A model generated the notes under the pieces. That model made no database searches. It saw nothing but the letters and a program-made list of their open reading frames with translations, and was not told where the DNA came from. A stretch of DNA of 34,294 nt, taken from the NCBI GenBank assembly GCA_026396015.1, contig JAPLXP010000011.1, forward strand, positions 79,897 to 114,190, read 5' to 3'. Shown here piece after piece: positions 5,411-34,294 of the stretch (within the stretch, counting starts at the first letter, position 1; each line of letters starts with the position of its first letter). Position numbers and translations under genes: made by a program. The DNA is from Candidatus Nomurabacteria bacterium (GTDB taxonomy: Bacteria > Patescibacteriota > Minisyncoccia > Phycocordibacterales > UBA9973).

Positions 5411-5483
5411 TGCGCGATACAGGAGTCGAACCTGTGACATCGTCAACGTCAATGACGCGCTCTACCAACTGAGCTAACCGCGC
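5411..5483 (-). tRNA. tRNA-Val(GAC)
   Basis: Minus strand GCGCGGTTAGCTCAGTTGGTAGAGCGCGTCATTGACGTTGACGATGTCACAGGTTCGACTCCTGTATCGCGCA; acceptor GCGCGGT/ATCGCGC pairs; anticodon loop TTGACGT; CCA not encoded. Confidence 0.95.
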
Positions 5484-6414: not shown

Positions 6415-6486
6415 GGCCCTATCGTCTAACGGTTAGGACGCCGGCTTTTCAAGCCGTTAATCCGGGTTCGATTCCCGGTAGGGTCA
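6415..6486 (+). tRNA. tRNA-Glu(UUC)
   Basis: GGCCCTATCGTCTAACGGTTAGGACGCCGGCTTTTCAAGCCGTTAATCCGGGTTCGATTCCCGGTAGGGTCA; acceptor GGCCCTA/TAGGGTC; anticodon loop TTTTCAA. Confidence 0.96.
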
Positions 6487-6723: not shown

Positions 6724-6964
6724 TAACCCTAAATACTTTTCACAAACTCACGCTCCTCTCTCGTATTATGCAACATAATAACCTTTTTATTTTTCGAATG
6801 TTCCAGGACTTTATTGTATTCCTCGCTTGACGAATAATCCCATATAAATTTAATCAATAGCCAATTTAGATGATTCTTTCTTTTACCACACATATCAGGT
6901 CGAAATTTTCGGACATCCTACAATAGCTATTTTTTCATACATCAATTATATAAAATAAATAAAA

Positions 6965-6987
6965 AAAAACCTGCAAATGCAGGTTTT
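6965..6987 (-). terminator. Intrinsic terminator at the end of the pilin operon
   Basis: AAAACCTGCAaaTGCAGGTTTTTT. Confidence 0.8.
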
Positions 6988-7012
6988 TTAGCTCTAAACC
7001 AAAATTTAATTA

Positions 7013-7804
7013 TTATTTACAATAAGCCTTTCCTGAATTAAAAGCATCACTTGCAAGTTTGACTGCAACTGCCATCGCTTTTGCTGCTGCTGCTTTAGTT
7101 ATATTATGATTTTTTGAGGCTTCAGCTTTTGTCATGCTATTACTCCTAGATAATTCAGCTTTTGAGATACCACGAGCAGATGATGCAGTTTTTTTTGCAT
7201 TATTTAAGACAATCAATGCTGCGGCCTTGTCACCCTTGCGCTTTGTTTCTATTTCATTTTTTTTAGTCTTTAAATTACTAGTAGCCAAAGCTATAGCTTC
7301 ATTTCTAGCTATTTCAATAGGAATATCATTTGCTAAAAGGATAGCTGCGTTGTACACATTCCCTGCAGTACTCAAAGCACTATCACTAGCAGTATCAATA
7401 TTTTTGACCGCCAAAGAATATGCATTACCAGCACTAGTCAATGAAAGATCATAATCTCTCTTAATTTGATCTTGATTTGCCTGATATGTGACTTTTAAAG
7501 CATCTACACTTTTTGAATAATCAGAACTAAGACTATCTATTTGATTTCTATATGCCTGTTTAGCTGCTGACAATGCTAGTCTTTTAGTATTGTTTATAGT
7601 ACTAAGACAAGCACTTTTACTTAAACTACCAAGAATAACACCAGGGTTTAATGTATTTATACCACTAGTAGCACCAGTTGTTGATGTATTCAGATTGAGA
7701 CCACCTGTTGTTGTGCCAGTATTTATACCTAACGCAAAAACAGGACTATTTACAAACAAAAAACTAAACAAAGCAAATCCAGCTATAAATTTATTTTTTT
7801 TCAT
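7013..7804 (-). CDS. Secreted Ala/Lys/Ser-rich, probably alpha-helical protein, unknown function
   Basis: Signal peptide MKKNKFIAGFALFSFLFVNSPVFA; long Ala-rich heptad-like region; two mature Cys (CLSTINN and C-terminal YCK). Confidence 0.75.
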   Translation of the reverse strand: MKKNKFIAGFALFSFLFVNSPVFALGINTGTTTGGLNLNTSTTGATSGINTLNPGVILGSLSKSACLSTINNTKRLALSAAKQAYRNQIDSLSSDYSKSVDALKVTYQANQDQIKRDYDLSLTSAGNAYSLAVKNIDTASDSALSTAGNVYNAAILLANDIPIEIARNEAIALATSNLKTKKNEIETKRKGDKAAALIVLNNAKKTASSARGISKAELSRSNSMTKAEASKNHNITKAAAAKAMAVAVKLASDAFNSGKAYCK

Positions 7805-7838
7805 TTTTATGATTTAAATATTTTAATAATAAAAAAAC

Positions 7839-9209
7839 TTACTTGAGAGCACTCACAGCAATCCAGTAATGGTATACAGAGCTAGATCCACTTCCTGCCA
7901 CAAATGAATGATGGTCTAATACTGTATAAGTGATGCCAGAAATACTAGCTAGTCCCCTTAAATTGGCAATCTCAACTTTTGCATTATGATCTGCATTATC
8001 TTCCGCATGGGAAGAGCTATCAGCACTCATACCAGAAATTACGAAACGCACCTCAGTAGCAGTATCCATATTGTACGATGGATTTTCCTTCATATTTTTA
8101 AGGACCACATGAGCAGGAAGTTCAGTATTCAAATTACTGAGAAATATTAGAGGTAATGGTGAATGAGTAGTAGTGACTGTCTTCGGATAAGAAATCAAAA
8201 CCCAAAAATAAGTTTTACTGTTTGCGCTATCTGACAACGTCTTGAGCTTAACAATAGCCAAAACAGGATCGTAGACTCTAGGGACAATAGCTCCCTTAAT
8301 TTTATCCACCACAAGGGCTTTCGCTGAATTGGTCAAATCAATCCCAGTATCACCTGACACATAACCAGTTTCATTGAAATGAGTTGAAGAATCCTGATAT
8401 TCTGAATTAATAAATGGATTATCATTTACAAAAACGGGGTTAGTTGTAGTGGAACCTGATTGATTTAATGTTTCTGACATTGGAGACACCGCACAATTCA
8501 ATGACAAGCCAGGTTTTGGTGCGTAGGCAATATACCAATGATAATAAACATGATTTATCATATCAGTAGAATTTGCAATTATATTCATCTCTGTAGTGAT
8601 GTGTGGTATCCCGGGCTGCAATGTGCTAACATCCACATGATAATATTCAGCATATTTCTGTTTTGCATCAGACTGCACACTACCCAATGCAGCATACATA
8701 GAATCATTGCTCTGGACATATGTGGCCACTCTCCAACAGCTTTTATCTATATTGTATTTACCTTTAAATGGAGAAGTAGCAAATGCACTATGTGTACCTC
8801 CATTACCACTTGGCTCATTACCTGAATTACCAGTAGGCCCATTAGGATCTGGTGTATTCACTTCGGCAGGAAAACCAATATCACTATATCCAGTATTTGA
8901 AATATTAATCTCACCATTGTCTGTTATTTTAATTTTATTCTCACCCAATGTACTCAAGACAATACGCATAATACCAAATACAGACATCATAATAAAAATA
9001 CCAATAATCCCATAGAGCATATGGGATTTACTGGTAGTTCTAACTTCTTCATCGTCTGGAGAGAGAAAATATTGCACTACTCCATAGAGAAAATATACTA
9101 CAGCAACAGAAAACATAAATAGAATTAGTGGATTTAAAACAACTCTATTTATACTCTGCATGAGTGTCGCTACGCTAGCCTCTGCTACTGGTATAAGATA
9201 AAAATTCAT
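7839..9209 (-). CDS. VirB2/T4SS-pilin-like membrane domain fused to a large extracytoplasmic domain
   Basis: N-terminal two-TM segment FMFSVAVVYFLYGVVQYFLSPDDEEVRTTSKSHMLYGIIGIFIMMSVFGIMRIV resembles the adjacent pilin-like proteins; PNGPTGNSGNEPSGNGG linker; about 330-aa C-terminus. Confidence 0.75.
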   Translation of the reverse strand: MNFYLIPVAEASVATLMQSINRVVLNPLILFMFSVAVVYFLYGVVQYFLSPDDEEVRTTSKSHMLYGIIGIFIMMSVFGIMRIVLSTLGENKIKITDNGEINISNTGYSDIGFPAEVNTPDPNGPTGNSGNEPSGNGGTHSAFATSPFKGKYNIDKSCWRVATYVQSNDSMYAALGSVQSDAKQKYAEYYHVDVSTLQPGIPHITTEMNIIANSTDMINHVYYHWYIAYAPKPGLSLNCAVSPMSETLNQSGSTTTNPVFVNDNPFINSEYQDSSTHFNETGYVSGDTGIDLTNSAKALVVDKIKGAIVPRVYDPVLAIVKLKTLSDSANSKTYFWVLISYPKTVTTTHSPLPLIFLSNLNTELPAHVVLKNMKENPSYNMDTATEVRFVISGMSADSSSHAEDNADHNAKVEIANLRGLASISGITYTVLDHHSFVAGSGSSSVYHYWIAVSALK

Positions 9210-9212
9210 ATA

Positions 9213-9605
9213 TTAACAGCCTGTTTCAACACCATTAAAATCTTTGTATGGAACACAAGGAATCATATCACTATTAAATTGAGTTGGACCAACACCTGTA
9301 CTATTTGCAATTACCCCAACAATACCCCAGAATGCTACAATAACAAACAAGCCGATCAAGCCTTGGATGATCTTTGCACGTGCACCTGTCTTTGCCTCCT
9401 CATCTGTAGACATTGTGTACTGAATGACACCCCAGATAAAGTAAACAGTAGCCAATGCGATCAATACTGGAATTACCTGATTTAATAATTTATTAACAGT
9501 AAAAATAAGACTACCTAAATCAGCAGCAAACGCAACAAATGGAGACACCACAGTAATGATAAACAAACTTAATAAAATATTTTTTTTCATAATTTTATAC
9601 AACAA
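9213..9605 (-). CDS. VirB2/TrbC-like T4SS pilin-family protein
   Basis: Signal peptide plus IPVLIALATVYFIWGVIQYTMSTDEEAKTGARAKIIQGLIGLFVIVAFWGIVGVI. Confidence 0.8.
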   Translation of the reverse strand: MLYKIMKKNILLSLFIITVVSPFVAFAADLGSLIFTVNKLLNQVIPVLIALATVYFIWGVIQYTMSTDEEAKTGARAKIIQGLIGLFVIVAFWGIVGVIANSTGVGPTQFNSDMIPCVPYKDFNGVETGC

Positions 9606-9671
9606 TAAAACTCTAATAATAATAAACTAATTATAACATGTGTAATTAAAAAATAACAAGCACAAATACAG

Positions 9672-9971
9672 CTAGTTGCTATTCAGTTGTGGAACTATCA
9701 ACTTGTTATTGATACCTACAGTTGAAGACAAAACATTGACCAAACCCCAAATAGACACCATAACAAAAAGACCAATCAAACCCCAGATCATATAAGATTT
9801 ACCTTGACTCCTCTTCTCCTCATTTTCTGGATTTATAAAATAAACAATTACACCCCAGATAAAAGCTGCAGTAGCAAGAGCAAATAACATAGGGATAACA
9901 GAATTTGAAATAAAACAAGTTCCTAAATTAAATACATCGGCTATAGTTTTTAGTGTGTTTGAACAATTCAT
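9672..9971 (-). CDS. VirB2/TrbC-like T4SS pilin-family protein
   Basis: VIPMLFALATAAFIWGVIVYFINPENEEKRSQGKSYMIWGLIGLFVMVSIWGLVNVL. Confidence 0.8.
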   Translation of the reverse strand: MNCSNTLKTIADVFNLGTCFISNSVIPMLFALATAAFIWGVIVYFINPENEEKRSQGKSYMIWGLIGLFVMVSIWGLVNVLSSTVGINNKLIVPQLNSN

Positions 9972-9982
9972 ATAATAAATAA

Positions 9983-10375
9983 TTAGCTAGTACTTTTAAT
10001 ATCACTCACAGTCCCCTGTATCGCCTGAGCAATAACCCAAGAACCCAACAGTAACGCTGCGCCGATCAATGTATACATCAAAGTCTTTTTGGCTTCACTC
10101 AATTTTTCTGAATTACCTTGAGCTACCACAAAAAGAAAACCACTATATATAATAGCAAGAGCGACAATAGGTATACCAATCATAAGCACTATATTTATAG
10201 CAGATTCAATAAAACTTGGAATTGTAGTAATACTATCTCCTAATGGATTATTTATTTTTACACTTAAAACAGAATCGGCCTGCACTGAATAAAATGGAAT
10301 TATCAAAAAAACATAAAGAAGTATTTTGTAAATATAATCTTTGTAATAAAATCCGTAAAAAATAATTCTTTTCAT
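9983..10375 (-). CDS. VirB2/TrbC-like T4SS pilin-family protein
   Basis: FIESAINIVLMIGIPIVALAIIYSGFLFVVAQGNSEKLSEAKKTLMYTLIGAALLLGSWVIAQAI. Confidence 0.8.
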   Translation of the reverse strand: MKRIIFYGFYYKDYIYKILLYVFLIIPFYSVQADSVLSVKINNPLGDSITTIPSFIESAINIVLMIGIPIVALAIIYSGFLFVVAQGNSEKLSEAKKTLMYTLIGAALLLGSWVIAQAIQGTVSDIKSTS

Positions 10376-10421
10376 TTTTATATAATAAGCTTAATATTAA
10401 TTAAACACAACACTCCGTCTT

Positions 10422-10835
10422 TTAACCAAGATTGAGAAACAAACCTAAATCGCTAAAACCAAGACTGACCATAATCGTCTTTACAATAACCCATGCCAAT
10501 AAAGCCAATAAATAACCTATAAATAAATTTTTAATTATACTCTTTGCTGTACCGACATTTTCACTACTACCACCAGAAAACATATAAAGTACTCCTGCAT
10601 AACAAAAACCAATAGCAAAAAGTGGTGTTGCCACAATAAACAATAAAAAATTTATAATATTATTTATCGTGGCCATCAAGCTATCAAAATTACAATCATC
10701 AGTACAAGCAACAATAGCTTTTGTATCACTGGCAGCAAACACATAATTTGAATTAGCATTAAATAGATTAATCCTAGCAAAAAATGTTATGGGCAAGATT
10801 ACAGACAAAAAAATAATAAGTGGTATTTTTTTCAT
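10422..10835 (-). CDS. VirB2/TrbC-like T4SS pilin-family protein
   Basis: INNIINFLLFIVATPLFAIGFCYAGVLYMFSGGSSENVGTAKSIIKNLFIGYLLALLAWVIVKTIM. Confidence 0.78.
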   Translation of the reverse strand: MKKIPLIIFLSVILPITFFARINLFNANSNYVFAASDTKAIVACTDDCNFDSLMATINNIINFLLFIVATPLFAIGFCYAGVLYMFSGGSSENVGTAKSIIKNLFIGYLLALLAWVIVKTIMVSLGFSDLGLFLNLG

Positions 10836-10838
10836 AAA

Positions 10839-12143
10839 TTATTGATTGATTAATATATTAAGCTGATTTTCAAATTTAGCTACTGAATCAGCAGAATTCA
10901 ATTTATTTGAATTAAAATTTTGAATCAACTCTCTAAAAATTAAATCTGTAGATTTTGTATTTGGATCAAGCCATGAATGTAAAAATACTGATGATTTATA
11001 AAAAGTAAAAAGATAAGGATCACTTGGATTTTCATTCAATAGGCTCTTTTGTGCTGGTGGAATAGATAATGCAGTAGAAAGTTCTTTTACATTTACTTGA
11101 TCAGCAAACAAAGATGCGACACCAATAGAAGTTGGTAAATTCTTGGATTTATTACTGATAGCTATAGCATAAATAGGACCAGTAGTGCGCCTTATATCAG
11201 TATCTCGTGTTTGTAATATTTCAGTCACATCAAAATTTATATTTGGATTTATTTCTCTTATTCTAAAGAGCTCGCTCGCATGACCTATATACAAAACAAG
11301 TTTGCCTTTTGTAAACATATCTCTAGAATTTGACAGAGAACTATTCCATGAATATGCTTGGCTTTTTTGATTAGAAAATTCATTAAAAAAAGTTAAAGAC
11401 TGTTCTAGTGGTGAATTAGAGAAAGCATTCTTTTCGTTCACAACCACTCGAGGATGATCACTTTCTTTATTAAAATCAATTATTTTGTTACCACTACCGA
11501 GCAACAATAAAGACAAAATATCTTTTGCATTGTCAACATTATTAAAACTACCCATAGCTATCATACTCTGAGACAACACACCGTCATTGGTCTTTTTTGT
11601 TAATAAGTCATTTAGATTAAATAACTCATCCCAATAATGAGGTGGGTTTGCTACTCCTGAATTACTCAAAATATCTTTATTGTAATAGAGGACAAGTGGA
11701 TCAGACACAATAGGGAAACCTAATATCCCTTCTTTATTTAAAAATACATCCGCACCATCAATAAAATTCTCTCTGTATATTTTTTCAGGATAACTCGCAT
11801 AAGGAATTGGATATATGAATTTTTTATATTTCAAAACCATATCCGGTGTTATAAAAAATAAATCAGGATTATTGCCAGCAGCAAATGATTCTATTAAATC
11901 TGAATTATAAGTATCTTGGGATTTTTGTACATATTTTATTATCAAATTATTATTCGAAGCACTCATATTTTGAATATAACTAGATACAGAACTAGAAGGT
12001 AAAGTTCCCCAAACTAAAACCTTACCTTGGAGTGTGGTCTTGCTAGAAGAATTACCAATAGGCAAAATACCTGAGAATATCAGTACGGCAAAAACAAAAA
12101 AAGAAAGAAAAACTGCAATAAGAACTGTTTGAAAATTACTCAT
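10839..12143 (-). CDS. Membrane-anchored extracellular solute-binding protein (family 1-like)
   Basis: N-terminal TM; VLVWGTLPSSSVSSYIQ; DLIESFAAGNNPDLFFITPD; GILGFPIVSDPLVLYYNKDIL; PPHYWDEL are typical of ABC sugar-binding proteins. Confidence 0.82.
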   Translation of the reverse strand: MSNFQTVLIAVFLSFFVFAVLIFSGILPIGNSSSKTTLQGKVLVWGTLPSSSVSSYIQNMSASNNNLIIKYVQKSQDTYNSDLIESFAAGNNPDLFFITPDMVLKYKKFIYPIPYASYPEKIYRENFIDGADVFLNKEGILGFPIVSDPLVLYYNKDILSNSGVANPPHYWDELFNLNDLLTKKTNDGVLSQSMIAMGSFNNVDNAKDILSLLLLGSGNKIIDFNKESDHPRVVVNEKNAFSNSPLEQSLTFFNEFSNQKSQAYSWNSSLSNSRDMFTKGKLVLYIGHASELFRIREINPNINFDVTEILQTRDTDIRRTTGPIYAIAISNKSKNLPTSIGVASLFADQVNVKELSTALSIPPAQKSLLNENPSDPYLFTFYKSSVFLHSWLDPNTKSTDLIFRELIQNFNSNKLNSADSVAKFENQLNILINQ

Positions 12144-12663
12144 ATATAAATATTATACCATAATGATGACTACCAGCAGAAATATTTTCCTGAATTTTGA
12201 ATCCTCTATCTACAAAAAGATGCTCTGCTTTTATTTTTGGAACTATATACTTCGGTTGTGGACCCATACCAGCAAAACTATCCATCCAATCAATCACTAA
12301 AACACGTCCTTTGGGTTTCAAGACTCTCTTTACTTCATCAATCAATCCGATTTTGTCCTCAGATTGGAATAGCACATTTGAGACTACTACTGCATCCATA
12401 GATTTATCAGCCAATTTTGAACCGCCCTTTTTCTCAATATCACCAAGAATACACTCTACATTTTTAACAGCATAAAATCTTGTATCTTCAGCAAGTTTTC
12501 TAAATAGTGTATTTTGTATGTCGATAGCGTACACGTGACCAGTATGACCAACATGATTTGAAATAGATCGAGTATACCCACCAGAACCGGCACCAAAGTC
12601 TGCGACGCGCATACCTTCGCGAAGATTGAATTGTGCGATATTACTTTCTGGATTTGCAAACAT
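12136..12663 (-). CDS. Class I SAM-dependent methyltransferase
   Basis: GMRVADFGAGSGGYTRSI motif I; VYAIDI; DAVVVSNVLFQ; EVKRVLKPKGRVLVIDW. Overlaps the next gene by 8 nt. Confidence 0.88.
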   Translation of the reverse strand: MFANPESNIAQFNLREGMRVADFGAGSGGYTRSISNHVGHTGHVYAIDIQNTLFRKLAEDTRFYAVKNVECILGDIEKKGGSKLADKSMDAVVVSNVLFQSEDKIGLIDEVKRVLKPKGRVLVIDWMDSFAGMGPQPKYIVPKIKAEHLFVDRGFKIQENISAGSHHYGIIFIYE

Positions 12664-12686: not shown

Positions 12687-12712
12687 AAAGTCCGAAAGTA
12701 AATTCGGACTTT
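12687..12712 (-). terminator. Intrinsic terminator
   Basis: AAAGTCCGAA-agtaaa-TTCGGACTTT. Confidence 0.75.
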
Positions 12713-12728: not shown

Positions 12729-13319
12729 TTATCTAATCTTAATTTTATTTTCAGAAGAATATTTTTCCCATACATCTTGCCAATCTGAACGAAAAACAGA
12801 CAAAATAACTTGATCATGATACTGACCACTCTTGTAGTGGTGATCTTTTAATCTTGCTTCCTCTTTGTATCCACATTTATTGGAAAACGCTAGGCTCCTT
12901 TCGTTATAAACAATAACTTCAGAATATAATTTACGAAGGTTTAATTCATTAAAAGCTAGTTCTAAAAGGAGCATTTTTGCTTCTGTCCCATAGCCCTTAC
13001 CCCAATACCTTTCATCTCCGATGACAGATCCTGTAGTAGCGACACCACTGATGTAGTCTATGTTATGCATACCCATGGTGCCTATCAACTTTTTGGTCTT
13101 CCTGTCGACAATAGCGAGTATAACTCTGTCTTTTGTAGACTTGGAATTGCTCTCATACCAATTCTTTTCATCTATAAAAGTAATTGGGAAAACATTTGCC
13201 AAAAAATGAGTGACTTTTGGATTATTCATCCATTTTTGAAACAAAGGAATGTCTGATTCCTGTAACGGGCGCAATATAACCTTGCTGCCTTTGCGAAAGA
13301 TAATTTCTTGATTTTTCAT
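12729..13319 (-). CDS. GNAT-family N-acetyltransferase (RimJ/RimL-like)
   Basis: VILRPLQESDIPLFQKWMNNPKV; RYWGKGYGTEAKMLLLELAFNELNLRKLYSEV; NERSLAFSNKCGYKEEA. Confidence 0.9.
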   Translation of the reverse strand: MKNQEIIFRKGSKVILRPLQESDIPLFQKWMNNPKVTHFLANVFPITFIDEKNWYESNSKSTKDRVILAIVDRKTKKLIGTMGMHNIDYISGVATTGSVIGDERYWGKGYGTEAKMLLLELAFNELNLRKLYSEVIVYNERSLAFSNKCGYKEEARLKDHHYKSGQYHDQVILSVFRSDWQDVWEKYSSENKIKIR

Positions 13320-29206: not shown

Positions 29207-31054
29207 TTATACAACAAAGTCTTTATTTAAAATTCCATTTCTTAGAATTAGATTTTCTGATTTATATATATAAGTATATGATTCGTCATTATTTTTTTTA
29301 TCAATTACAATATAATACTCACCTTTTGGTAATAGACAATAATAATTGCCATACTTATCAGCAACACGATGAAATATTTCCTTAGTTCCTCCTTTTTGAA
29401 AAACACGAATAATAGCAAAAGATAATGGAAACATTGTATCTTTTTCTTTTATCGTACCGTGTGTTTTTGATTTTATATTTATTTTTCTAAATATCATTAA
29501 AATAATATAAAAAGAAATAACACCAACATTATAGTAGCTAAAACCATTAATCAATACTAGCAATACAGAAAAAACAAAACCAAGATAAAACAAAAAATTA
29601 GAAATCTTAGCAAAAATACTCGCATTAGGAGAATTAAATTTTAATAAATTTTTATCTTTTTTAGTAAATTCATTCCAATCAAATCTTTCTGGGTCCATTG
29701 GTATGTTTTTTGTAATAGTTTTACCATCTTCTAGATACATCAATTCTCCAAAATAAAGATTTTCATAAATAGTATCATTTGATTTTCCGTCCATCTTTTT
29801 TGAGGGAAAAATGTAATTATTTTTCTTTACAGAAAGAGCATACCAGCCGGGTGGAACAAGAAATCCAAAACGACCATCCATATCAGTTATCGCAGTCGAT
29901 ACTTCTTTTCCATTCTTATCAGATAGCACTACATATACAGGATCCAATGGTTGCTTTGTTACACTGTCATACACAGTTCCCCATGGTCTTAATTTTTTCT
30001 TTAAACCAATTGCTGATAAAAATAAACTCCACAACCTAAAGAAATTTAAAAAAAACTCAGAAAAAGATATCGCATTAAATATTAGAGAAGATACGATAGT
30101 AGTACTTCCTCCCACGACACCGGCAGTTGTCACAGTTTTGGCTCCTATATCAAGAGTATCTGAATTTGCAACATTTACAACTTCATCACGTATTTGAGTA
30201 GATTTTATTTTTATGACAGAAGAGATATTACTTTTATTTTCTTTTTGAGGAACAGATATATTAATATCATTTACAATTTTATTACCAGATATACTAACAT
30301 TTTTTTTAATAGGAGTACTATCTTCAGGCATTATATAAGTAATACCACCAGTTATAACTGGGGTATTATTATTTTTTACAATATCACTAGAAGATTCATA
30401 CTGACCAATATTACCAATTGGCATCTGTTTTGGAGAATTAGCATCTTTTTTGATAACAATATTATCCGTAGTATCCACAATTAAAGATACTACTGGTGGT
30501 TCAATATTTTTAATAATAAGAACAGGAGGTGTGCCGTCTTTTCTGAAAGATATAGGTCTCCAATCTGTTTTTACTTTATAATCCTCTTTTGTACAAGAAT
30601 TGTCATTTATACAATTAAAAGATATTATTCCAAATTTTTGACTCAAAGCATATCCAGTAAATTCACCATCTGAATTTATTTTCACACCCCCACTATTAGG
30701 GCTGAAATTCAACCATCCACCAAACTCAGACGTAGCATATCCATACAGATTACCTTCTCCATCATTAAAAACCCCAGCACCAGAAGGTGCCAAATTAACC
30801 CATCCTATTTTTTCACCCCAAGCAAAACCAGTTAAATTCGAATCTGTAACATCAACATGGATACTACCTCTAAACAAACCGAAGTTTATCTTCAGAGTCG
30901 GATCAGTTGAACCCTTTGCGTACTTATAAACATTATCTATTGTACCTGAAAGATCGGCAGCATTTATAATATACGGACCAAAAATTACAACACAAAAGAA
31001 ACTAAGGATTCCAACAAATACAATATACTTGTTTTTGTGGTATTTATTTTCCAT
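29207..31054 (-). CDS. Multi-TM surface protein with GW-type repeats and two carboxypeptidase-regulatory-like domains
   Basis: Signal anchor; repeats GFAWGEKIGWVNLAP / GYATSEFGGWLNFSP / GYALSQKFGIISFNC; GTVYDSVTKQPLDPVYVVLSDKNGKEVSTAITDMDGRFGFLVPPGWY; second GTIKEKDT...DKYGNYYCLLPKGEYYI. Confidence 0.8.
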   Translation of the reverse strand: MENKYHKNKYIVFVGILSFFCVVIFGPYIINAADLSGTIDNVYKYAKGSTDPTLKINFGLFRGSIHVDVTDSNLTGFAWGEKIGWVNLAPSGAGVFNDGEGNLYGYATSEFGGWLNFSPNSGGVKINSDGEFTGYALSQKFGIISFNCINDNSCTKEDYKVKTDWRPISFRKDGTPPVLIIKNIEPPVVSLIVDTTDNIVIKKDANSPKQMPIGNIGQYESSSDIVKNNNTPVITGGITYIMPEDSTPIKKNVSISGNKIVNDINISVPQKENKSNISSVIKIKSTQIRDEVVNVANSDTLDIGAKTVTTAGVVGGSTTIVSSLIFNAISFSEFFLNFFRLWSLFLSAIGLKKKLRPWGTVYDSVTKQPLDPVYVVLSDKNGKEVSTAITDMDGRFGFLVPPGWYALSVKKNNYIFPSKKMDGKSNDTIYENLYFGELMYLEDGKTITKNIPMDPERFDWNEFTKKDKNLLKFNSPNASIFAKISNFLFYLGFVFSVLLVLINGFSYYNVGVISFYIILMIFRKINIKSKTHGTIKEKDTMFPLSFAIIRVFQKGGTKEIFHRVADKYGNYYCLLPKGEYYIVIDKKNNDESYTYIYKSENLILRNGILNKDFVV

Positions 31055-31059
31055 AATTT

Positions 31060-34000
31060 CTATTTTACATTATTAATAAAATTAAATGTCTCGTTAAAGT
31101 TTTTAAATATAACGTCTACAATAGATTCATTTGGTCTTGGTGTGATAATAGTACGAACAGGTAAGACTGCTATGTTGTTTGCATCATCAGAAGATGCTAT
31201 TTGGAATCTATACACCTGACCAGGTCTCAATGTTGTCAGCATTACCGTATGAGTCAAAGTTAATTCTGTATCCTCTTGTTTATTTGCTAAAGCCTTATCA
31301 GGAGAACCAGATCCTTCTTCATAATAAACCACTGAAGTAGATGGTTCATCTGTCTTCCAGGAAACTATCGTCTGAGTTTTATCTGTTCTACCTACAACAA
31401 GAGCACTATCAATTTTTATTCTAGAGATAACAGGTGGTGTCACATCAGTAGAAGTAGTTACATTCAAAGCCTCGACAGCTTCGACAATATTACCAATATC
31501 ATTTACACCAGAAACATTTACAGAATAAGTAGTACCAGGAGCCAGATTTTCTACCTTAACAGAATGAGAAAGATTCATTGATCCATCTGTGGTACGATCA
31601 ATATTACCATTTCTTAAATTCTTATATTCTACGATTGAAGAAGTTGGTTCACTTGTTACCCATACGACTGTAAATGAATCTTTCTTACGATCAGCGACAG
31701 ATGCGACTATTTTTGCAGGTTTTGTTGTAAACACAACATCTTCAGATTTACCAATAACTTGTGGCAATGAAAAGGCTTTTGCCATTACATGATATTTAGT
31801 ATTAGGTTTTAATCCAATTAATTGTAATTTATGGTTTATCTCTTTTGTGCTAGTATCTGATATTTCTCCATTATAACTACTAGTAGTAGCATCAACTATA
31901 CTAGTATAATAACTATCACTTGAATAACTAACAACTGGGTAAGATTTAATATTTGTCTTAAATGTCACCGCAGCTGAATTCTCTGTTATATCAGATAAAT
32001 CTGGCTTTTGAACAAATGGTGCAATCAAAGAAGGAACTATTGATTCTATTGTTGAATCTATTTCTGATTGGAATTGTTCTATGTTATCTACACTTGTACG
32101 CTCTGGTAAATTCTCACTGAAGAATTTTGTTTTAAAAACTTGATTTTTATCACTAAAAGTCCCAACATTACCATATTTATCTATAGCTTTCAATCTAAAA
32201 TAATAATCTGTTCCCATTGTTAAGCCAGTCAATTTTATCTTATGGTTCTTCGCAAAAGCAAAGTCTGCAACATTTTTACCATAATCTTCATTTTTACCAT
32301 AATCTATAGCACCAATAGTTTCCTTGTCACTATCAAAACTTATAATAGCAGTAAAGGAAGTAATTTCTGATATTTTTGAATTAGTAATAACCGGTAATTC
32401 TGTAACTTGATCTTTTATTTTATTTTCAATATTTTGTTTTTCTTGAAGAAGAGAATCATATACACTTTGAAGTACGCCTGATATTACATTTACAGATACA
32501 GTTTGATTAGAGTCCACTGTTTGTACTGTTTGCACTGAAGATACAGCTTCATTACCTGCTACATCTTTTGAATGAATAACATAATAATATGTTGTATTAG
32601 CAGTTAATCCAACTAATGATATAAAATGACTAGTTGCGGGAGTAGAATCAATCAATGATTCAGTTGTTAATGAACCAGATTGTGTTCCGTACCACACGAC
32701 TCCGTCAGTCAATTCATCTGTCTTCCATACTATACCCACAGCAGTAGGTGTTGTAGCTGGTGTTGCAATACCAGATATTATAGGAAGAGTTACATCAACA
32801 ACATTTATAATTCTATCTTTTGTTGATGTAGCGCCAGTCACGTTATCTGTGACTGTATAAGTAATTTTATTTCCAGAAGATCCATAATGCTGGTTATTTA
32901 CACCAGTTAGACCAGTTACAATTATACTGCTGGTTAAATCTCTAATACTATCATCTGCATCTGTAATACTTGCAGTCACACCTGGTTCAGAAAAAACAGT
33001 CATTGTATTCATTAAATAAGGGTCTGAACCTCCAGTAAACACAATCACAGGAGCAGGAGCTGTCGCAGAAGTAAAAGTAACTGCAATAGTATGATTAGAA
33101 ACAACATCATTAAAATTATAAGTATTTATACCATCAGCAGGCAATAGAGACTGATTGGCATTATCTATGATAATAGTTGCTACTTTAAATCCAGAATCTG
33201 GAGTTAATGTAAATGTTGGATTTGAATGAGTTGGAATTATGTATGTACCGTTTTGATCAGCGGTTCCAACATCTGAAATTATATTACCATGATTACCTGT
33301 AGTGACATCAATTCTATACTGTTCTGCATACACAATATGCACAACTCTAATCATTTCAACTGCAGGATTTAAGTGCGCATCGCTGACATTGTAACGAATA
33401 TTATAATCACCGACAACCTGAGTATTTACAGCAGATACACCTACTACAACAATATTTGAAGTAAGATTTATATTACCAGGATTATCTAAAGCAGTAGCAC
33501 CAGCATCTGTGTAAGTACTTACACTACCCACCACTATAGTCACATCATCTAATCCATTCACCTGAGTAATAGTAATCACTGGTGGAATATTATCAGCAGC
33601 AGCGATAAATGAAGCAGAAATTGTGTGTACACTTGTAACATTGCTAAACGTATACAGTGCAATAGTGGAATTATTTGAATCAAAAACTGTTGGGACAATT
33701 GGAGTACTATCAACTATTATTGAATACACCTTAAATCCTGCTTCAGGAATAATACTAAATTGCTGTGAGGCATTCAAATTTACGGTTAAAATATTATTTA
33801 CTCCTTCTGGTAAAATACTACCATTAGAAACCTGGTTAATAGTTATATCATAGCTAGATGGAGCATTTACTATAACAGTTCTATTTTTACTTGTATGATT
33901 TCCACTTGAATCTATAGCAGAATAAACAATTATATAAGTACCTACAATAGAAGTATTAGATTGATTTAATATACTGTATTTACATGTGCCAGCTGATGAA

Positions 34001-34294
34001 GTTGTATCAGTAGCACCTAAAGTACAAGTACCATCTACAGCATCAACTACCGTAAACCCTGGATCATTATATGTCTGACCTGTAGTTAGTGTAACTGTAC
34101 CTCCAGTGAGAGTAATTACTGGTGCAGTTGTATCTGATGTTGTAATTATACTAAACGTCGCCGCAATAGTATGAGCAGTCAATACATTTGAAAATGTATA
34201 TGAGGAAGCTGTAACGAGAGATACACCATCTACAGTCAAAGTAGCGATTTGAAATCCTGATGCTGGAGTGATTGTATACATTTGATTTGCACCT
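31060..34294 (-). CDS. Giant multidomain surface adhesin-like protein (DUF5011-like Ig, divergent InlB B-like and FN3-like repeats); N-terminus beyond window
   Basis: Frame remains open to the window edge (GANQMYTITPASGF). Repeats PASGFQIATLTVDG...YTFSNVLTAHTIAATF; PVITLTGGTVTLTTGQTYNDPG; four FN3-like modules. Confidence 0.85.
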   Translation of the reverse strand, partial: GANQMYTITPASGFQIATLTVDGVSLVTASSYTFSNVLTAHTIAATFSIITTSDTTAPVITLTGGTVTLTTGQTYNDPGFTVVDAVDGTCTLGATDTTSSAGTCKYSILNQSNTSIVGTYIIVYSAIDSSGNHTSKNRTVIVNAPSSYDITINQVSNGSILPEGVNNILTVNLNASQQFSIIPEAGFKVYSIIVDSTPIVPTVFDSNNSTIALYTFSNVTSVHTISASFIAAADNIPPVITITQVNGLDDVTIVVGSVSTYTDAGATALDNPGNINLTSNIVVVGVSAVNTQVVGDYNIRYNVSDAHLNPAVEMIRVVHIVYAEQYRIDVTTGNHGNIISDVGTADQNGTYIIPTHSNPTFTLTPDSGFKVATIIIDNANQSLLPADGINTYNFNDVVSNHTIAVTFTSATAPAPVIVFTGGSDPYLMNTMTVFSEPGVTASITDADDSIRDLTSSIIVTGLTGVNNQHYGSSGNKITYTVTDNVTGATSTKDRIINVVDVTLPIISGIATPATTPTAVGIVWKTDELTDGVVWYGTQSGSLTTESLIDSTPATSHFISLVGLTANTTYYYVIHSKDVAGNEAVSSVQTVQTVDSNQTVSVNVISGVLQSVYDSLLQEKQNIENKIKDQVTELPVITNSKISEITSFTAIISFDSDKETIGAIDYGKNEDYGKNVADFAFAKNHKIKLTGLTMGTDYYFRLKAIDKYGNVGTFSDKNQVFKTKFFSENLPERTSVDNIEQFQSEIDSTIESIVPSLIAPFVQKPDLSDITENSAAVTFKTNIKSYPVVSYSSDSYYTSIVDATTSSYNGEISDTSTKEINHKLQLIGLKPNTKYHVMAKAFSLPQVIGKSEDVVFTTKPAKIVASVADRKKDSFTVVWVTSEPTSSIVEYKNLRNGNIDRTTDGSMNLSHSVKVENLAPGTTYSVNVSGVNDIGNIVEAVEALNVTTSTDVTPPVISRIKIDSALVVGRTDKTQTIVSWKTDEPSTSVVYYEEGSGSPDKALANKQEDTELTLTHTVMLTTLRPGQVYRFQIASSDDANNIAVLPVRTIITPRPNESIVDVIFKNFNETFNFINNVK

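Follow-up and report, generated by a model that had tools for sequence, protein, structure and literature searches.

Why should a methyltransferase, a solute-binding protein and five different pilin-like proteins be encoded one after another downstream of gyrA? The question is raised by a minus-strand gene unit at 7013-12663 in a 34,294-nt stretch of DNA (the window) from a Candidatus Nomurabacteria bacterium (contig JAPLXP010000011.1, positions 79,897 to 114,190 of the forward strand), a tiny and probably host-dependent organism. The reading preferred here, and judged rather likely, is that the unit encodes a module of the Patescibacterial type IV secretion system (T4SS) that sits at the cell surface, with the motor and membrane part encoded elsewhere in the genome, beside dnaA.

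Conserved gene order and the type IV secretion genes

The five pilins, named p1 to p5 in gene order, are encoded on the minus strand at 10422-10835 (p1), 9983-10375 (p2), 9672-9971 (p3), 9213-9590 (p4) and 7839-9209 (p5). The first-pass annotation of the window had called them VirB2-like, and Pfam indeed places them in the T4SS-pilin family PF18895. The family cut-off is exceeded by p1 (1.5e-10), p2 (2.4e-7, with an additional weak TrbC/VirB2 match at 0.0021), p3 (9.4e-11) and p4 (1.1e-8). p5 is borderline, its pilin domain at residues 34-82 scoring 23.5 bits as a protein (cut-off 26.6) and 27.4 bits in a genome search, and it carries a C-terminal extension of ~350 aa. None of the five pilins has a Pfam match to the N_methyl or class III prepilin domains of type IV pilins. 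Upstream of p1, on the same strand, are the genes for a CUT1-like extracellular solute-binding protein (SBP) with an N-terminal membrane anchor (10839-12143; PF01547, 2.6e-16) and for an S-adenosylmethionine-dependent methyltransferase (12136-12663; Methyltransf_31, 1.5e-16), which overlap by 8 nt. Both Pfam matches are clear and bear out the earlier assignments, and all eight minus-strand open reading frames (ORFs) of the first-pass annotation are present where it had placed them.

The gene order was compared across 107 distinct operons of the order (Nomurabacteria/Paceibacterota and kin), whose named records are Nomurabacteria, Zambryskibacteria, Campbellbacteria and other Paceibacterota. 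The arrangement gyrA–methyltransferase–SBP–p1–p2–p3–[~115 nt]–p4–p5 is nearly invariant, with the methyltransferase directly upstream of the SBP in 99 of 105 operons and gyrA upstream in 82 of 88. Among the 81 operons with >4 kb of downstream sequence, to which pilin counts were limited, at least three pilins follow the SBP in 79 (five in 55, six in 14). The SBP is single-copy in 53 of the 61 genomes that make up the order sample (the window's own genome and its relatives). Two things set the window apart from the common order, a GNAT gene that lies between gyrA and the methyltransferase and an Ala-rich protein at the end. A wide sequence set gave no usable stretch for multiple alignment, and a genus-level alignment was used.

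This order is kept well beyond the taxonomic order. Neither outcome that the first-pass annotation would have taken as a refutation, small proteins outside the T4SS-pilin superfamily or a gene order shared with no relative, was observed. The SBP is present in 280 of 380 genomes of the phylum, and pilins lie directly downstream of it in 14 of the 16 loci sampled outside the order; shorter loci from the phylum search agree, making the SBP-pilin adjacency phylum-wide. The gene upstream of the SBP varies outside the order. In the window's class it is gyrA-methyltransferase, and the methyltransferase is also beside the SBP in other families of this class; at the sampled loci of other classes the methyltransferase is not found, and the upstream genes are presumably galU, comM or leuS. 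Three loci from genomes labelled Burkholderiales and Simkania (L167, L222, L223) also carry the Patescibacterial SBP locus, and these labels probably reflect binning contamination of public metagenome-assembled genomes.

VirB4 is not encoded in the window, as the first-pass annotation had stated. A search elsewhere found one on another contig of the same genome (G000:C2, 9.5-17.6 kb), where VirB4, TrsD, PrgI and a pilin-like/SLT protein lie beside dnaA; TrsD was assigned by position and by similarity to a protein of G337, not by a Pfam model. VirB4 is present in 54 of the 61 genomes of the order sample and in 363 of the 380 phylum genomes. G337, which is of the same class, has a single cluster, with all genes in one direction, of the methyltransferase, the SBP, two pilin genes (one encoding two pilin domains), PrgI, TrsD and VirB4. 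In G077 three ORFs separate the SBP and four pilins from PrgI-TrsD-VirB4 downstream, and looser SBP/pilin-VirB4 clusters are found in G386 and G189. The relaxase PF03432, the one relaxase family covered by the search, is absent, and a weak VirD4-like match lies elsewhere in the window's genome. Beside VirB4, a protein of 928 aa (L038:10770-13556) combines a weak pilin-like stretch with an SLT transglycosylase domain, and another of 377 aa (L038:17573-18706) matches a lysozyme-like family (Pesticin) weakly.

Five pilin positions and the predicted major subunit

A positional comparison of 33 operons with exactly five pilins shows that p1 to p5 find their best match in another genome at their own position in 95, 88, 71, 87 and 98% of cases, p3 being the least fixed. 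Scores have a median of 80 bits for same-position pairs between genomes and of 32 bits for paralogues within an operon. In a tree p5 forms one clade (33/33, support 99/99), and all five position labels need 13 changes versus ~100 when shuffled, with the limits that the alignment is short and that outside the family p3 and p4 separate less cleanly. Judged from sequence relationships, the five pilins are positional orthologues and not recent duplicates. This argues for a division of labour over antigenic variation, and it supports the heteropolymer proposed in the first-pass annotation. Two tandem pilin domains in single proteins are found in other families of the phylum (L125:7243-7902 and L126:10627-11289, the latter read from the sequence).

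The p4 gene is set apart by its upstream region. A gap of at least 55 nt precedes p4 in 97% of 63 five-pilin operons, versus 0-8% for p1, p2, p3 and p5. In the window the p3-p4 intergenic region (9606-9671) contains an internal promoter, TTGTTA-18-TATAAT at 9659-9630, with TG before TATAAT (extended -10), and the start of p4 is likely the ATG at 9590 instead of the TTG at 9605, as read from the sequence. The extended -10 (TGNTATAAT) precedes p4 in 16 of 19 genus members, compared with 0.46 expected from shuffles. The first-pass annotation had described a single operon; the gene set and the unit stand, and uniform transcription does not, since p4 has its own promoter.

In relatives the p4 promoter is followed by a hairpin with an NGTCG loop (12 of 19 genus members versus 0.94 expected). 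Its stem covaries, with 18 cells changed on both sides versus 7.8 when shuffled (0/500), and slid controls gave lower values. Of ten hairpins of this type in 621 kb of scanned strand, eight are located immediately upstream of p4. Rfam matches only tRNAs in the window and five loci, so the leader hairpin is not an Rfam family at the gathering threshold. p4 is extended in none of the 63 five-pilin operons, and 31 of the 63 p4 proteins have a C-terminal cysteine pair that is rare at other positions. The conserved promoter of its own, the lack of an extension and the leader hairpin in relatives suggest that p4 is probably the major subunit.

AlphaFold2 models of p4 and p5 and the pilin alignment agree on a pair of hydrophobic helices with a short charged loop between them. 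The p4 helices are modelled at residues 30-65 and 69-102 (pLDDT 78-87 in the helices, mean 70), and the pilin part of p5 is a helical hairpin at residues ~12-88, mostly at pLDDT about 90, followed by an extension modelled at low confidence. The last ~100 residues of p5 (window 7839-8140) weakly resemble Alba-type nucleic-acid-binding proteins (Foldseek E 5.6e-3), but most of this region is modelled at pLDDT below 62 and the match was not used. In p1-p4 the inter-helix loop shows a tendency towards positive charge, and by the positive-inside rule both termini should therefore face outward.

Extensions at these termini are common at some positions. Among the 63 operons p1 is extended in 23, p3 in 16 (9 N-terminal, 7 C-terminal), p5 in 6 and p2 in 2, and p1 is the position that most often has N-terminal outer domains. 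The extensions include TIG and fn3-like domains. In the nearest relative (G002/L039) the N-terminal extension of p1 is a homologue of the C-terminal extension that p5 has in the window, with 29% identity over 102 aa (E 6e-7 in the extension set, 5.5e-7 among all ORFs). Two more p5-p1 extension pairs are found in other genomes, one of them being a short, perhaps common repeat rich in Cys and Trp. By homology, one type of domain can thus be carried by more than one pilin, suggesting that p1 and p5 are parts of a common structure. Two probable large surface proteins in the window, one of 1073 aa with Pur_ac_phosph_N, bacterial Ig-like and fn3 domains (31060-34281) and one of 615 aa with a CarboxypepD_reg-like domain (29207-31054), have domain types that resemble the pilin extensions of relatives.

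Orphan solute-binding protein, proposed module and alternatives

The SBP family profile matches CUT1 SBPs of known structure, and aromatic and polar positions such as W266 and N267 are conserved. A cognate MalF/MalG-type permease pair was not found in the window's own genome, where the only BPD permease adjoins its own ATPase and is presumably of the NitT/TauT type, and ABC permeases of this BPD family are missing altogether from 54 of the 61 genomes of the order sample. On this gene content the SBP, a protein of the sugar-binding type, is an orphan whose transporter has been lost. The SBP of the window has a hydrophobic anchor at its start and no lipobox, and the SBPs of L125, L127 and L132 have a lipobox-like cysteine, both as read from the sequence; the SBP is thus predicted to be membrane-attached by one means or the other. 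Within the genus SBP identity is about 50%, versus about 88% for VirB4. SBP relatives at L130 and L134, which have a long N-terminal stretch before the hydrophobic anchor, lie beside groES-groEL with no pilins nearby.

In the proposed T4SS module, VirB4, TrsD, PrgI and the pilin-like/SLT protein beside dnaA would supply the motor and the membrane part. A pilus, or a short conduit at the surface, would have p4 as its major subunit, and p1, p2, p3 and p5 may be minor or specialised subunits that present domains for binding a host or a surface at their outward ends. Having no permease, the membrane-anchored SBP may be a part for ligand or glycan recognition or docking and not an importer. The methyltransferase may modify some component of the module, and the complete system would mediate contact with another cell and exchange between the two. 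More tentatively, Paceibacterota may build a heteropolymeric T4SS pilus in which p4 forms the shaft, the other pilins are sockets for exchangeable host-recognition domains, and an ABC-type SBP has been recruited as a stationary part for recognition. If this is true, the five-subunit pilus would be a modular organelle for host recognition, of a kind that known T4SSs lack. The orphan SBP and the extended pilins are named here as a candidate recognition module for the Patescibacterial T4SS, and the candidate major subunit p4 and the fixed five-role arrangement can be tested in cultivated epibionts or by cryo-electron tomography. The variable outer domains may also help to predict the hosts of uncultivated lineages.

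Several observations weigh against such a module. The pilin genes are unlinked to VirB4 in the window's genome, and VirB4 is commoner than the SBP in the phylum sample (363 versus 280 of 380), suggesting that the SBP is dispensable, or unrecognisable, in some lineages. The leader hairpin is not present in the window's own p4 leader. Foldseek with the p4 model gave nothing significant, and when PDB sequences were searched with the pilin alignment the only hits were chance ones to G-protein-coupled receptors, so that neither search returned a significant match to a solved VirB2-type pilin. Filament formation and function are what we infer from sequence.

The same pilin features could also be explained without a pilus. 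Five non-equivalent pilins would also suit a hetero-oligomeric ring or channel that spans the membrane or wall, only helical hairpins are predicted by the models, and Gram-positive T4SSs are usually without pili (PMC12857230). However, a promoter of its own and the constant lack of an extension mark out p4 alone, suggesting many copies of one subunit, and a ring or channel appears rather unlikely. A further alternative, in which the array provides functionally equivalent copies for antigenic or host-range variation, is in keeping with outer domains that vary between species; antigenic variation has been proposed for Patescibacteria by analogy to Bartonella and Anaplasma (PMC12102498). This explanation is weakened by the best-match positions and the tree, since the copies are old positional orthologues rather than lineage-specific duplicates, and with number and order nearly fixed it seems very unlikely.

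Other alternatives concern the SBP and its neighbour. Solute uptake via a T4SS or pilus has been speculated on (PMC12857230), and the SBP could hand a sugar or other solute to the pilins and the T4SS channel in place of an ABC permease. It retains a CUT1-type profile with W266 and N267, and such permeases are absent from most relatives, but the low SBP identity within the genus fits a surface-recognition part equally well. To our knowledge no T4SS imports small solutes through an SBP, and nutrient capture is considered improbable. The SBP and methyltransferase might instead be unrelated housekeeping neighbours, with the pilins alone forming the system, as the absence of the methyltransferase from the locus outside the window's class and the groES-groEL loci of L130 and L134 would allow. 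Yet the adjacency of SBP and pilins persists across classes despite the upstream changes, and the SBP is found within VirB4 clusters. For the two proteins together this is highly improbable; it is unlikely for the SBP and less clearly so for the methyltransferase.

With the T4SS module as the preferred reading, the array itself is of a known kind. VirB2 arrays of Patescibacteria have already been published (PMC10633639, PMC12102498 and PMC12857230), and a T4SS with a pilin array is essential for epibiotic growth of Southlakia epibionticum, the one species tested (PMC10633639). The window's genome resembles these systems in its PF18895 pilin array, in encoding VirB4, TrsD and PrgI, in having VirB4 near dnaA, as in the loci described in PMC12102498, and in yielding no match to the one relaxase family searched (PF03432). 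It differs in that the array, with its five positional orthologues, lies apart from VirB4 behind gyrA, and in the orphan SBP, the methyltransferase, the internal p4 promoter and the exchangeable outer domains. A large survey reports that no adhesin was found for the Patescibacterial T4SS, and 'solute-binding' has 0 occurrences in the passages of it that were searched (PMC12102498).

The Gram-positive MPF-FATA machinery (pCF10, pGO1) shares the VirB4/TrsD/PrgI core but is without VirB2-like pilins and uses wall-anchored adhesins such as PrgB (PMC12102498 and PMC12857230). The SBPs of CUT1 ABC transporters (MalE, GacH, MBP1) resemble the SBP in sequence family and profile match, whereas the SBP of the window has no cognate permease pair and is membrane-anchored beside pilins. 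The pilus-tip protein VirB5 may be comparable in function, as a part for recognition, to the SBP or the extended pilins, and Pfam found no sequence relation between it and the proteins of the unit. As far as the searchable literature goes (without preprints and with few subscription papers), the linked orphan SBP, the methyltransferase in this class and the five fixed roles appear to be new, as do the p4 promoter, the leader hairpin and the exchangeable outer domains.

Unit boundaries and neighbouring genes

The secreted Ala-rich helical protein (7013-7804, minus strand), which the first-pass annotation had counted as an operon member, is a local add-on and not a conserved member. It is without a relative in the 23 other genomes of the genus, and one weak match (7.1e-4) was found among 60 other genomes. 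The ORF that follows p5 in the nearest relative is unrelated and presumably encodes a HAD-type hydrolase, and the Ala-rich protein was rejected as part of the system.

The unit ends at an intrinsic terminator on the minus strand at 6964-6989, within a few nucleotides of the 6965-6987 given earlier. A second minus-strand intrinsic terminator (12687-12712) separates the methyltransferase from the upstream GNAT acetyltransferase gene (12729-13319), which it follows and which is not at this place in most relatives. Downstream of the unit are two tRNA genes, at 5411-5483 (minus strand) and 6415-6486 (plus strand).

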